Shown one piece after another: positions 19,321-23,008 of a stretch of DNA of 64,000 nucleotides. Positions within the stretch are counted from its first letter, which is position 1, and every line of letters starts with the position of its first letter. Below the pieces are notes generated by a model. It saw only the letters and a list, made by a program, of their open reading frames with translations. It was not told the origin of the DNA and made no database searches. The DNA lies in assembly GCF_014873755.1 (NCBI RefSeq), contig NZ_JADBEG010000001.1:6422501-6486500 (forward strand). The letters are read 5' to 3'. The stretch comes from Amycolatopsis lexingtonensis (GTDB lineage Bacteria > Actinomycetota > Actinomycetes > Mycobacteriales > Pseudonocardiaceae). Both the position numbers and the translations under genes were made by a program.

Positions 19321-19624
19321 GGGAACGGAAAATAAGAGGGCCTGTCACCGGAAGCCCTGGGGGTCGACCTCCGGCAACAGGCCGTGGCCAAGGGATCCTC
19401 CCGAGGGCGATCGACCTTGGCCTGTGCAGCGTACTACAGACCGCCGATCATGACGAGCCGGAGGCGCGACAAGCCCCTCGCCCGGCCGTTCCGTACACCC
19501 CCAGGGCACGGACCGCCAGGCGAGAGGCGTGCCAACTGTAAACCACTGCATACGATAGCTGTCAACGTGTGCGTACAGTGGTTTCCCGGCTAGAATTTTC
19601 ACGGCGGAAACCTAGGGGGCGGGG
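19321..19624. other. structured intergenic region without a gene
   Basis: This 304-base region contains no convincing coding frame but three consecutive hairpins. Hairpin 1 pairs GGCCTGT (19339-19345) with ACAGGCC (19377-19383), with inner CCGGA/TCCGG. Hairpin 2 pairs GGCCAAGG (19386-19393) with CCTTGGCC (19415-19422). Hairpin 3 pairs CTCGCC (19477-19482) with GGCGAG (19519-19524), with inner TCCGT/ACGGA. Read on the minus strand, hairpin 1 is followed by a TTATTTT tract, as a terminator would be. It could be a small RNA on the minus strand, a terminator for the flavodoxin gene, or a leader of the XRE gene. Confidence 0.45.
19540..19596 (+). promoter_or_regulatory. candidate operator and -10 of the XRE cassette
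   Basis: AAACCACTG (19540-19548) and CAGTGGTTT (19576-19584) are perfect inverted half-sites, extended by TAC/GTA two bases further in. TAGAAT (19591-19596) directly after them is a good -10 element. Transcription would start near 19603, about 20 bases before the XRE ATG. The layout fits autorepression by the XRE protein. Confidence 0.55.
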
Positions 19625-20029
19625 ATGGCACGGGAACGCACCTTCGCGGAACGGCTGAGTGCCCTGATCGACGCGGCCCGGCTGGACGGCCGCGCGCCGC
19701 ACAGCTACCGGGAGATCTCCGCGGCCGTCGAGCGTGCGGGCGGGCCGGCGATGTCGCCCGCCTACCTGCAGCAGCTGGCGACCGGGAAGCGGGTCAACCC
19801 GAAGATCCACTACGTCGAAGCGCTGGCGCGGCTGTTCGGCGTGCCGGTCACGTACTTCTTCGACGAAGAGGCGGCCGCGCCCCCGGCGGGCGAGGCCCAG
19901 CTGATGGCGATGCGGGCGCAGGAGCTGTCGCCGCAGGGCCGCCGTCAGGTGATGGACCTCCTCGACCTCGTCGAACGCTACGAGCGGGCCGAGCGCGAAG
20001 GCCGGAATCCCGAGGACACCGCGCGATGA
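19625..20029 (+). CDS. XRE-family helix-turn-helix regulator
   Basis: Cytosolic DNA-binding protein of 134 residues. The helix-turn-helix lies within about 8-70 (SYREISAAVERAGGPAMSPA then YLQQLATGKR), followed by the LARLFGVPVTYFF segment typical of XRE regulators and a helical tail. The ATG at 19625 follows GGGGGCGGGG. Its stop overlaps the ImmA/IrrE start by four bases. XRE and ImmA/IrrE pairs usually act together, the peptidase cutting the repressor or a partner in response to a signal. The palindrome at 19540-19584 is its likely operator. Confidence 0.85.
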   Translation: MARERTFAERLSALIDAARLDGRAPHSYREISAAVERAGGPAMSPAYLQQLATGKRVNPKIHYVEALARLFGVPVTYFFDEEAAAPPAGEAQLMAMRAQELSPQGRRQVMDLLDLVERYERAEREGRNPEDTAR

Positions 20030-20547
20030 AGGAGCGCGAGCTGCGCCGCCGGTGCCGGAAACTGCTGAAAGACCTCGACATCGGCCCGCCGCTCGACGTC
20101 GAGGTGCTGTGCGCGCGGCTGGGCGAACAGCGCGGCAAGCCGATCCGGCTGATGGCGTACCCGCTCGAAGTGCCGGGCCCGTTCGGCTGCTGGATCGCGA
20201 CGTCGGCCGCGGACTACATCTTCTACCAGGCCGAAACGACGAAATCGCACCAGGACCACATCATCCTGCACGAGCTCGGCCACATGCTGGCCGACCACCA
20301 CCCGCACGGCGACGCCGAGCCGGCGGACTTCCTGCGCGGCCCCGCTCCGGATCTTGACCCGGATGCCGTACACCGCGCGCTGCGCCGGTCGTCCTACGAT
20401 GACGCGCACGAGTGGGAAGCCGAAACGGTCGCGACGATCATCCTCGAATGGGCGTCGGTCCTGAACTACACGATCCCCCGGCGCGCCGCGGACCGGGATC
20501 TTCGCCGGATCCAGGGGGCGCTCGGCGATCACCAAGGGTGGTTGTGA
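20026..20547 (+). CDS. ImmA/IrrE family metallopeptidase
   Basis: Predicted cytosolic zinc peptidase of 173 residues. The HEXXH motif is HELGH (82-86), and the downstream acidic EWEAE (129-133) supplies the third ligand. Family members cleave XRE-type repressors (ImmA on ImmR, IrrE/PprI on DdrO) and derepress their targets. The start overlaps the XRE stop and the end overlaps the next gene (GTGA), so XRE, peptidase and membrane protein are translated as a unit. Its substrate is probably the adjacent XRE protein; this is inference. Confidence 0.85.
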   Translation: MKERELRRRCRKLLKDLDIGPPLDVEVLCARLGEQRGKPIRLMAYPLEVPGPFGCWIATSAADYIFYQAETTKSHQDHIILHELGHMLADHHPHGDAEPADFLRGPAPDLDPDAVHRALRRSSYDDAHEWEAETVATIILEWASVLNYTIPRRAADRDLRRIQGALGDHQGWL

Positions 20548-21659
20548 GCACACTGTTCAGCCCCGTGAACTTGATCGCTATGGTGCTGTTCGCCGCCGCG
20601 CTCGCGTGGCGGATCTACCAGGTGCAGCGCGCGCCGACGGTGCCGAACTGGGCCGTGACGGCGTGCGTGGCCGGCTTCGCCGCGGCGTTCCTGCTGCAGC
20701 AGACGGCGATTTCCGACGAGGTTGACGCCCTCCTCGGCCGCGGTGCGGCGCGGGTGGCGAACAACGCGCTGCTGGCGTGCGGCATCTGCGCGCTGGTGAT
20801 CTTCTTCCTCGGCTCCGCGCTGGGCCCCCGCCGGTACCGCCGGGTGGCGGCCGAGCTGGCGCCGCTGGTGGCGGCGATCGCGCTGATGATCGTCGCGATG
20901 GCCGTGACGCCGCCCGAGCTGCGCGGCCTCCCGCTGGGGCCCTCGACGGTGCACGACAGCGGGGTCGCGCTGTTCTACCTGGGCGCCGGGCTGTACCTGA
21001 TCTACGGCCTGATCGCGTGCTCGGCGTGGATCGTGCGGTACCTGCGGGTGGCCGACCGGAACCTGCGGATCGGGCTCAAGCTGAGCGCGATCGGCATGGG
21101 CCTCGCGGCCGTGGGCAGCATCTTCCGCGCGCTGTACATCGTGGTGGCGTGGGCGTTCGGGCCGGTGGTGAAGCTCCTGTTGCTGCTCGGCGTGCCGTTC
21201 GTGATCATCGGCGGCATGCTGTTCCTGGCCGGCGTCACCTACCCGGGCGTGCGGGCGCGGCTTTCGGCGTTGCGCCGGCGGCGGCAGCACCGGCGCGAGC
21301 ACCAGGCTCTCGCTCCACTGTGGACGGCGCTGGTCCACACGTTCCCCAGCATCGTCCTGCGCACGCCGCCGCGGCGCGACCGGTTCTCGCCGCGCAGCAT
21401 CCACCGCGTGCACTACCGGCGGGTGATCGAGATCCGGGACGGGCTGGTCCAGCTGTCGCCGTACCTGGCGGCGGACTTCGGCGAGACCGTGGCGACCGAC
21501 CCGGGCGCCGCGGCGGCCGCGTTGAAGGCGGCGCTGGCGCGGCACGCGGCGGGCGAGGAGAACGACGGCCGCGCCAAGCAGGTCCTGCCCGCCCACGCGG
21601 ACGACATCGAATCCGACGTCCGGCCGCTGCTCGCGCTGTCGGCCGCATTGGAGTCGTGA
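20544..21659 (+). CDS. MAB_1171c-family membrane protein
   Basis: Protein of 371 residues. The N-terminal 225 or so residues form about seven membrane helices. The rest is a basic linker (LRRRRQHRREHQAL) and a cytoplasmic domain with HRVHYRRVIEIRDGLVQLSPYL. This architecture matches the actinobacterial MAB_1171c family, often labelled putative transporter although no transport has been shown to my knowledge. The GTG at 20544 overlaps the peptidase stop by four bases; longer starts would lie inside the peptidase gene. The coupling suggests a membrane sensor or target for the XRE/ImmA pair. Confidence 0.75.
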   Translation: MSTLFSPVNLIAMVLFAAALAWRIYQVQRAPTVPNWAVTACVAGFAAAFLLQQTAISDEVDALLGRGAARVANNALLACGICALVIFFLGSALGPRRYRRVAAELAPLVAAIALMIVAMAVTPPELRGLPLGPSTVHDSGVALFYLGAGLYLIYGLIACSAWIVRYLRVADRNLRIGLKLSAIGMGLAAVGSIFRALYIVVAWAFGPVVKLLLLLGVPFVIIGGMLFLAGVTYPGVRARLSALRRRRQHRREHQALAPLWTALVHTFPSIVLRTPPRRDRFSPRSIHRVHYRRVIEIRDGLVQLSPYLAADFGETVATDPGAAAAALKAALARHAAGEENDGRAKQVLPAHADDIESDVRPLLALSAALES

Positions 21660-21660
21660 C

Positions 21661-22830
21661 GTGGACACGCTGATCACGGCAGGCCGGGTCCTGCCCCGGC
21701 CGTCGGCCCCGGTGCTCGACGGCGCCGTCCTGATCCGCGACGGCGTGATCGTGGCGGCGGGCGCGCGGGCGGACGTCGTCGCGCAGGCGGCCCCGGACGC
21801 GGCTCGGCACGACTTCCCGACCGGGACCGCGCTGGCCGGGTTGTTCAACGTCCACGTGCACCTGGCTTTCGATGCTTCGCGGGAGATGCTGGCGCATTTT
21901 TCTTCTGCCTCGGATCCGCTGGAAGACGCGCGTTCGCGGCTGACGTCGATGCTGCGCAGCGGCGTGACCACGGTCCGGGACCTCGGCGACCGCGGTCACC
22001 TGGGTGCGGCCGTCAGGTCGTCGTTCTCGGGTTCGGTGGCTCCGCGGCTGCTGGTGTCGGGCCCGCCGATCACGGTGCCGGACGGCCATTGCCACTTCTT
22101 CGGCGGCGCGGTCTCGTCGGATGCGGCGATCCGCGCGCTGATCGACGAGAACGCGGCGGCGGGCGCGGACGTGATCAAGGTGATGGCGAGCGGCGGCCAG
22201 ATCACCGAGGGCGGCGCGGACATGTGGGAGTCGCAGTTCTCCGCGCGGGAGCTTTCGGTGGTGGTCTCGCACGCGGCTTCGCACGGGTTGCCGGTGGCGG
22301 CCCACGCACACGGCGCGGACGCGATCGCTGCGGCGGTTTCGGCCGGGGTGTCGACGGTGGAGCACTGCAGTTTCCTGACCGGGCCGCGGACGTTCGACCG
22401 GCGTGACTCGGTGGCCGCGCAGATGGCTCTTGCCGGGATATCGGCGTGCTCGACGAGCAGCCGGAACTGGCGGGTGATCGTCGAGAAGCTGGGCGAGACC
22501 GCGGCGGAGGCGATGTACGGGCGGTTGCCGTGGCTGGAGGAGCACGGGGTCCGGTTGCTGGCCGGGACGGACGCGGGGCTGCCGGGGTCGGTGTTCGACG
22601 ATCCGGTGGGGGCGTTGGAGTTGTACGAGTGGCTGGGGTTTTCGCGGCGGCGGATCCTGGAGATCGCGACTTGTGATTCCGCGGATGGGCTCGGGCTGTC
22701 GGCGGTGACCGGGCGGCTTGAGGCGGGGCTGGAGGCGGACGTGCTCGTGGTCGAGGGGGATCCGCTGGCGTCGCTCTCCGCGCTTCGCAACCCGCTGCTG
22801 GTGCTGGCTCGGGGGCGCGCCGCCGCGTAG
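21661..22830 (+). CDS. metal-dependent amidohydrolase (imidazolonepropionase-like)
   Basis: Cytosolic hydrolase of 389 residues with the full amidohydrolase ligand set. NVHVHLAFD (about 62-70) gives the HxH pair, VIKVMASGG the bridging-lysine strand, AAHAHG and STVEHCSF two more His, and AGTDAGLPG the catalytic Asp. The family opens cyclic amides, lactams or imino rings, or releases Xaa-Pro dipeptides; the substrate is unknown. It starts at a GTG one base after the membrane protein stop, so it is the fourth cistron of the XRE cassette. Confidence 0.82.
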   Translation: MDTLITAGRVLPRPSAPVLDGAVLIRDGVIVAAGARADVVAQAAPDAARHDFPTGTALAGLFNVHVHLAFDASREMLAHFSSASDPLEDARSRLTSMLRSGVTTVRDLGDRGHLGAAVRSSFSGSVAPRLLVSGPPITVPDGHCHFFGGAVSSDAAIRALIDENAAAGADVIKVMASGGQITEGGADMWESQFSARELSVVVSHAASHGLPVAAHAHGADAIAAAVSAGVSTVEHCSFLTGPRTFDRRDSVAAQMALAGISACSTSSRNWRVIVEKLGETAAEAMYGRLPWLEEHGVRLLAGTDAGLPGSVFDDPVGALELYEWLGFSRRRILEIATCDSADGLGLSAVTGRLEAGLEADVLVVEGDPLASLSALRNPLLVLARGRAAA

Positions 22831-22946: not shown

Positions 22947-22975
22947 TTGGTGACAGCGTTTTAAAACAGTGTTAC
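22947..22975 (+). promoter_or_regulatory. promoter with embedded palindrome
   Basis: TTGGTG (22947-22952) and TGTTAC (22970-22975) are spaced by 17 bases as -35 and -10. The spacer contains the perfect palindrome GTTTTAAAAC (22958-22967), extended by GTGACAG/CAGTGTTAC-like flanks, a layout common for TetR-type operators. It serves the gene at 23009. Confidence 0.55.
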
Positions 22976-23008
22976 AGTCAGCGCCACCCCAACCCGAGGA
23001 GTCCCCCG

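Follow-up and report, generated by a model that had tools for sequence, protein, structure and literature searches.

The 64,000-nucleotide stretch of Amycolatopsis lexingtonensis DNA analyzed here (the window; positions 6422501-6486500 of a 10.74-Mb genome) carries a forward-strand cassette of four coupled genes, which, judged from the sequences of its parts, may be read with a probability of about one half as a switch in which a membrane protein gates proteolytic derepression and to which an enzyme is attached. The cassette is one of an actinobacterial family of such units, and it consists of a gene for a repressor-like XRE protein similar to EspR and CapH (19625-20029; 134 amino acids), a gene for a minimal ImmA/IrrE/CapP-like zinc peptidase with HELGH and a downstream glutamate (20026-20547; 173 amino acids), a gene for a MAB_1171c family membrane protein (20544-21659; 371 amino acids), and a gene for an amidohydrolase-superfamily enzyme (21661-22830; 389 amino acids). 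The XRE and peptidase genes overlap by 4 bp (ATGA, 20026-20029), as do the peptidase and membrane protein genes (GTGA, 20544-20547), and a single base (21660) separates the membrane protein gene from the GTG start of the amidohydrolase; in these coordinates and overlaps, the first-pass annotation of the region was exact. The reading starts from gene order, coupling, conservation, active-site residues, an upstream repeat, and an exchange of the attached enzyme that agrees with the membrane-protein tree. No published description of the cassette was found in a literature search, most subscription journals being outside its coverage.

The XRE protein scores slightly under the Pfam cut-offs for HTH_31 and HTH_3, and its closest solved structure by sequence is that of EspR (PDB; E 4.4e-13, residues 3-93), a mycobacterial XRE-type regulator that, to our knowledge, is not encoded alongside a peptidase or a seven-transmembrane (7TM) protein. 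The peptidase, presumably similar in size to ImmA, does not reach the gathering score of Peptidase_M78 (16.3 bits vs 22), and its residues H82, E83, H86, E129, and E133 are unchanged in 19 of 19 sequences. In the comparison of its model with known folds, the protease core matches, with CapP at the top and tied with IrrE; it aligns to residues 6-153 of the 278-residue CapP chain, and the C-terminal half of CapP and IrrE, beyond the protease core, has no counterpart in the modeled protein. We know of no activator for many of the small ImmA-type peptidases. Because the peptidase here keeps the core only and adjoins a 7TM protein, the simplest explanation would be that the membrane protein has taken over the sensing. 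The peptidase is also the most conserved of eight genes compared across 25 loci, exceeding a histidyl-tRNA synthetase (HisRS)-like neighbor in identity to the window (97.5 vs 95.8% and 87.0 vs 82.2%). The peptidase match of L226 and L232 is divided between two frames, by frameshift or sequencing error.

The third protein is a member of the MAB_1171c family (NF042915), with 356.9 bits against a curated cut-off of 100 over positions 2-362 of 362, and Pfam places a DUF6545 domain in it. Hydropathy and an AlphaFold model (predicted local distance difference test score, pLDDT, 88.4) agree on seven hydrophobic stretches with the C-terminal domain on the positively charged side, as expected from the earlier description of a seven-helix protein with a cytoplasmic domain. 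The protein is therefore predicted to be a 7TM bundle with its N-terminus outside and the helical DUF6545 domain in the cytoplasm.

A check for co-occurrence of the four genes, proposed in the first-pass annotation, found all of them in order at 21 of 29 same-genus loci fetched by score; the other eight have a different type of membrane protein and no window-like partners within 1.5 kb. The 4-bp overlap of XRE and peptidase genes is present in 26 of 26 Amycolatopsis loci (L162-L187). Genes were called by a codon-score script, for which starts and small genes are approximate. Among 80 named loci, which were picked by similarity to the window membrane protein and are thus biased to close relatives, an amidohydrolase follows in 60 (in one, L241, as a 120-amino-acid fragment) and a same-strand XRE gene lies upstream in 53, while L199 and L239 gave no called membrane-protein gene. 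A hidden XRE gene upstream of the peptidase was found in one (L217) of 26 loci without a called one; these were 26 of 27 such loci, the incomplete L239 being excluded. A further survey covered 89 places drawn from 80 class-wide stretches, six stretches of the own genome, and the window, where the class-wide stretches are the 80 strongest matches (17 weaker matches over the cut-off were left out) and three of them (L107, L111, and L151) have no called membrane-protein gene. In 73 of the 89 places the peptidase immediately precedes the membrane protein, and in 79 it lies up- or downstream of it; XRE is nearby in 68, and a same-strand gene lies within 100 bp in 48. The own genome has seven membrane-protein places, six of them with a peptidase directly upstream. 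The seventh is a relic (L020:4736-5638; G000:C1:1212253-1213161), where a partial DUF6545 domain continues into a partial amidohydrolase without the HxH half. The membrane family is matched in 60 of 60 genomes of the genus (59 above the cut-off; a single genome has as many as 11 matches, not all above it), in at least 86 of 394 genomes of the class (at least 56 above), and in at least 22 of 296 genomes of the phylum sample, where the matches of at least nine exceed the cut-off and those nine all belong to the same class; no more than four candidates per genome in the class, and six in the phylum sample, entered the scoring.

The attached enzyme of the window matches Amidohydro_1 (Pfam; 103.3 bits), and its residues H65, H67, K173, H215, H235, and D304 are unchanged in 14 of 14 sequences; this set of HxH, Lys, His, His, and Asp is presumed to form the metal ligands. 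Its matches among solved structures, 3be7 (3.6e-31), 3mtw (3.2e-30), and 4c5y (7.9e-23), are of the Zn-dependent arginine carboxypeptidase, Cc2672, and ochratoxinase group, and by analogy with these nearest solved relatives, its substrate is perhaps a dipeptide or an N-acyl amino acid. Hydrolase relatives at E 1e-40 occur in at least 28 of 394 class genomes, with no more than four candidates scored in each. Outside the own genome, at least five relatives are at least 45% identical, three of which adjoin a membrane protein and two of which do not; the own genome holds at least three copies, namely that of the cassette, that of the relic, and one in another setting. A paralogue at L270:1480-2673 (G000:C1:9956487), 50% identical, is 4-bp-coupled to a 406-amino-acid gene, for which no match was found among the cassette profiles.

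Elsewhere in the class, other enzymes occupy the position of the hydrolase. The next gene within 350 bp at 81 class-wide places is PAP2-like in 16 (a label resting on the below-cut-off Pfam match of one representative, 22.5 vs 27.2), a flavin adenine dinucleotide (FAD) monooxygenase in 13, a cytochrome P450 in five, an amidase or a short-chain dehydrogenase/reductase (SDR) in four each, an amidohydrolase in three, an NsdA-family regulator or an XRE gene in two each, and a beta-lactamase-like protein, a methyltransferase, an alpha/beta hydrolase, or a second membrane protein in one each, with five others and 23 places with no next gene. The first-pass annotation had suggested counting replacements of the hydrolase, and PAP2-like, FAD monooxygenase, P450, amidase, and SDR genes were all found to take its place. 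An NsdA-family regulatory protein is in the downstream enzyme position at L083:2961-3947 and L089:2918-3901. On a quick tree with 116 membrane-protein rows (the named loci represented by 28; proteins under 300 amino acids excluded), which has some long branches and on which near-copies make labels cluster, the enzyme labels need 34 changes vs 76.2 when shuffled, and none of 200 shuffles is as low; amidase and SDR need one change each, PAP2 four, and FAD seven. Enzyme type tracks the membrane-protein clade.

Ahead of the XRE gene lies an operator-like direct repeat on the forward strand, conserved in this position, with unit 1 (CTGTAAACCACTGCATAC) at 19536..19553 and unit 2 (CTGTCAACGTGTGCGTAC) 23 bp after it at 19559..19576. 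The pattern CTGTMAACNNNTGCRTAC has exactly two sites in the genome, both here and 23 bp apart, and one single-mismatch site elsewhere; the pattern was derived from these two sites, so the two exact hits are partly by construction, and conservation across species is better evidence for the repeat than its uniqueness. The upstream regions of 22 loci have in common CAACTGTAAACCACTGCATAC and a second block, GCTGTCAAC..TGCG.ACAG, which are invariant or nearly so, and most of the repeat block is kept in a second clade and in the hydrolase-free locus L186. The direct repeat overlaps a perfect 9-bp inverted repeat (arms 19540-19548 and 19576-19584) that had earlier been put forward as the regulatory element. 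This palindrome is indeed present, but orthologues do not preserve its right arm (altered in L043, L038, L046, and clade 2), and the palindrome was rejected as an operator, the direct repeat being the conserved element in its place. The single promoter formerly assigned to the cassette likewise has no counterpart in a sigma-70 consensus scan, which shows none before XRE and did not pick up TAGAAT (19591..19596, forward strand), a possible -10 element by eye; if TAGAAT were the -10 element, unit 2 could overlap the -35 region.

From these observations we infer repression and cleavage, a gating role for the membrane protein, a ligand, and the direction in which the enzyme works. The XRE protein would sit on the two direct repeats ahead of its own gene and keep the four-gene operon low. 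The 7TM protein would recognize a small molecule and, via its DUF6545 domain, license the small peptidase, itself without a sensory half, to cut XRE. Induction of the operon would then yield more sensor and protease together with an enzyme modifying the molecule, here a metal amidohydrolase, which would either destroy the signal, so that the switch resets, or complete it. Because the operator-like repeat is unique, the operon would be its own main target, and its output would therefore be the enzyme.

Several observations weigh against this switch. The peptidase model has a pLDDT of 70.7 and is poor past residue 90. The five paralogous loci L015-L019 showed no copy of the repeat even when as many as three mismatches were tolerated, so each cassette would need its own operator. 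An XRE gene of about 230-300 amino acids lies convergent behind the enzyme in 18 of the 80 named loci (L189, L194, L200, and 15 others), all 18 from Streptomyces or Streptomycetaceae. Locus L186 has no hydrolase but retains XRE, the peptidase, the membrane protein, and most of the repeat, and since an opposite-strand gene comes next in 31 of the 116 tree rows, the attached enzyme is not obligatory. The 18 amidohydrolase rows of the tree need six changes, not one, and the correlation between membrane-protein and hydrolase distances, 0.972 across 40 loci (of 60 rows, 20 that were near-duplicate or short were excluded), is in part due to species descent. The best fold matches of the membrane protein are 7TM receptors and rhodopsins, but these are weak, and the loose resemblance to a G protein-coupled receptor (GPCR) is not significant (best Foldseek E 0.069; template modeling score about 0.4), with a Z that helical bundles commonly reach. 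In addition, NCBI and NCBIfam name the family a putative transporter.

That name supports an alternative, which we consider unlikely, in which the membrane protein carries a compound out of or into the cell, its modification by the enzyme serves detoxification or self-protection, and the XRE-peptidase pair is a local control sensing something else. A Mycobacterium abscessus MAB_1171c mutant forms about half the biofilm, and its authors interpret the protein as a transporter (PMC8707978); the exchangeable enzyme types also serve in detoxification. However, the seven helices, the N-out/C-in charge pattern, and the cytoplasmic helical domain argue against a transporter, as do the receptor-type fold matches, weak as they are, and the peptidase, which is mostly joined directly to the membrane protein.

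Known XRE-peptidase systems resemble the cassette in part. CapH/CapP, the controllers of cyclic oligonucleotide-based antiphage signaling systems (CBASS) and related operons, likewise comprise an XRE repressor followed by an HEXXH peptidase, where CapP cuts the CapH-type repressor (PMC13373217); the genes next in line are immune genes there but those of a 7TM protein and a metabolic enzyme here, and the peptidase here is without the C-terminal half. Published accounts also describe CapP and PprI as activated by single-stranded DNA to cut their repressors (PMC10904395, PMC13373217). The peptidase core fold is similarly alike in IrrE/PprI-DdrO of Deinococcus, where protease-triggered derepression is known (PMC10904395), but the cassette differs in having no counterpart of the C-terminal half, exact operator-like sites at its own promoter only, and a membrane partner. 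In ImmR/ImmA of ICEBs1 from Bacillus subtilis, an XRE protein adjoins a small zinc peptidase, as here (PMC2701414), but the cassette here is not tied to a mobile element and is coupled to both a 7TM protein and an enzyme. Bacterial 7TM receptors (7TMR-DISM, LytS-type BtsS), likened to the cassette by description alone, have seven helices and an intracellular output, which here would instead be a separate peptidase.

A defense switch like CapH/CapP, in which single-stranded DNA or phage infection would activate the peptidase and the effectors would be the membrane protein and enzyme, is improbable. It is favored by PADLOC, which, run on the four cassette proteins, likened XRE to capH (4.5e-9) and the peptidase to capP (1.2e-5), by the position of CapP among the fold matches, and by relatives borne by phage and plasmid. 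Against it, all PADLOC rows are regulators (CapH-like, CapP-like, and two weaker helix-turn-helix, HTH), with nothing for the membrane protein or hydrolase, the half of CapP/IrrE past the protease core is absent, the variable partners are ordinary small-molecule enzymes, and the chromosomal setting is constant, four neighboring genes being present at 25 of 25 Amycolatopsis loci compared. Of the signaling or defense module first proposed, signaling with a membrane sensor would also be the best reading here, whereas defense drew regulator matches only. A toxin-antitoxin or selfish immunity module, with XRE as antidote to the peptidase and the other genes as passengers, is very improbable: XRE-COG2856 pairs were predicted as toxin-antitoxin systems by Makarova 2009 and one genome holds six related peptidases and a relic copy, but the same study left aside those XRE pairs that include a membrane protein (PMC2701414), the peptidase is conserved above its HisRS-like neighbor, unlike a passenger toxin, and enzyme type follows the membrane-protein clade.

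The first-pass remark that no phage gene is present holds for this locus but not for its relatives, since related cassettes occur on phage Adler and on plasmids. Mycobacterium phage Adler (L354:2465-6078) has successive overlapping genes for an XRE protein, a relative of the peptidase, a MAB_1171c family member scoring 110.2 bits, and a P450. Three of these four genes carry the annotation hypothetical. The Adler peptidase, found via the window peptidase (31% identity over 69%), has no Pfam match at 1e-3, the window membrane protein has no match among phage records at E 1e-3, and viral contigs of IMG/VR gave three relatives, all weak. On a plasmid of Streptomyces sp. NBC_00390, the order is HTH gene, IS5 transposase, small gene, membrane protein, and amidohydrolase, and the stretch that matches this plasmid, L088, has XRE and peptidase there. 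The IS5-family transposase (L356:2211-3041) of the NBC_00390 plasmid lies between the HTH gene and the peptidase. Similarly, a Tsukamurella plasmid has an HTH gene, a 170-amino-acid hypothetical gene, and a membrane protein.

Just upstream of the direct repeat, a hairpin at 19473..19528 combines a variable, re-paired stem with an invariant apical CACCCCCAGGG (19496-19506) and folds at -34.8 kcal/mol (z -3.15). The loop core is present in 25 of the 26 named Amycolatopsis loci L162-L187, each of which folds as a hairpin around the core; between clades, the stem changes on both sides and the loop is kept. Mean z is nearly equal on the two strands, -4.99 and -5.02 by simple letter shuffles. Rfam gave no match at E 1. 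The exact hairpin pattern, also written from this cassette, occurs once per genome in 34 of 60 genus genomes, 1.06-1.17 kb ahead of a MAB_1171c match (distances compared by hand). Among 27 genomes that do not have the exact pattern (26 from the genus and one from the family), the upstream flavodoxin-like gene stands with no XRE called beside it in 18; a looser core is present in 1 of these 18 vs 8 of the 9 with XRE, and the direct repeat motifs in 0 of 18 vs 9 of 9. The hairpin occurs together with the cassette, and it might terminate transcription of the upstream gene, a reading weakened because the looser core tracks XRE and not that gene. The upstream flank contains the flavodoxin-like gene (FMN_red match) and, presumably, a phosphohexomutase-like gene; 3' of the cassette are a 129-amino-acid gene, with a promoter-like site at 22950-22978, and what we take to be the HisRS-like gene.

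The same arrangement on phage and plasmid suggests that the cassette is useful and portable. Its 7TM protein, joined to a peptidase without the other half, is a concrete and testable candidate for the sensor, and because the enzyme changes with the membrane-protein clade, enzyme class may offer a way to guess the ligands of a family now named putative transporter. More tentatively, and with considerable doubt, a GPCR-shaped 7TM receptor gating a separate metalloprotease that destroys a repressor might form a signaling family beside two-component and anti-sigma systems, whose operons include an enzyme to process the ligand, exchanged as the receptors split into subfamilies; the type of enzyme would then reveal the ligand class for each receptor clade.

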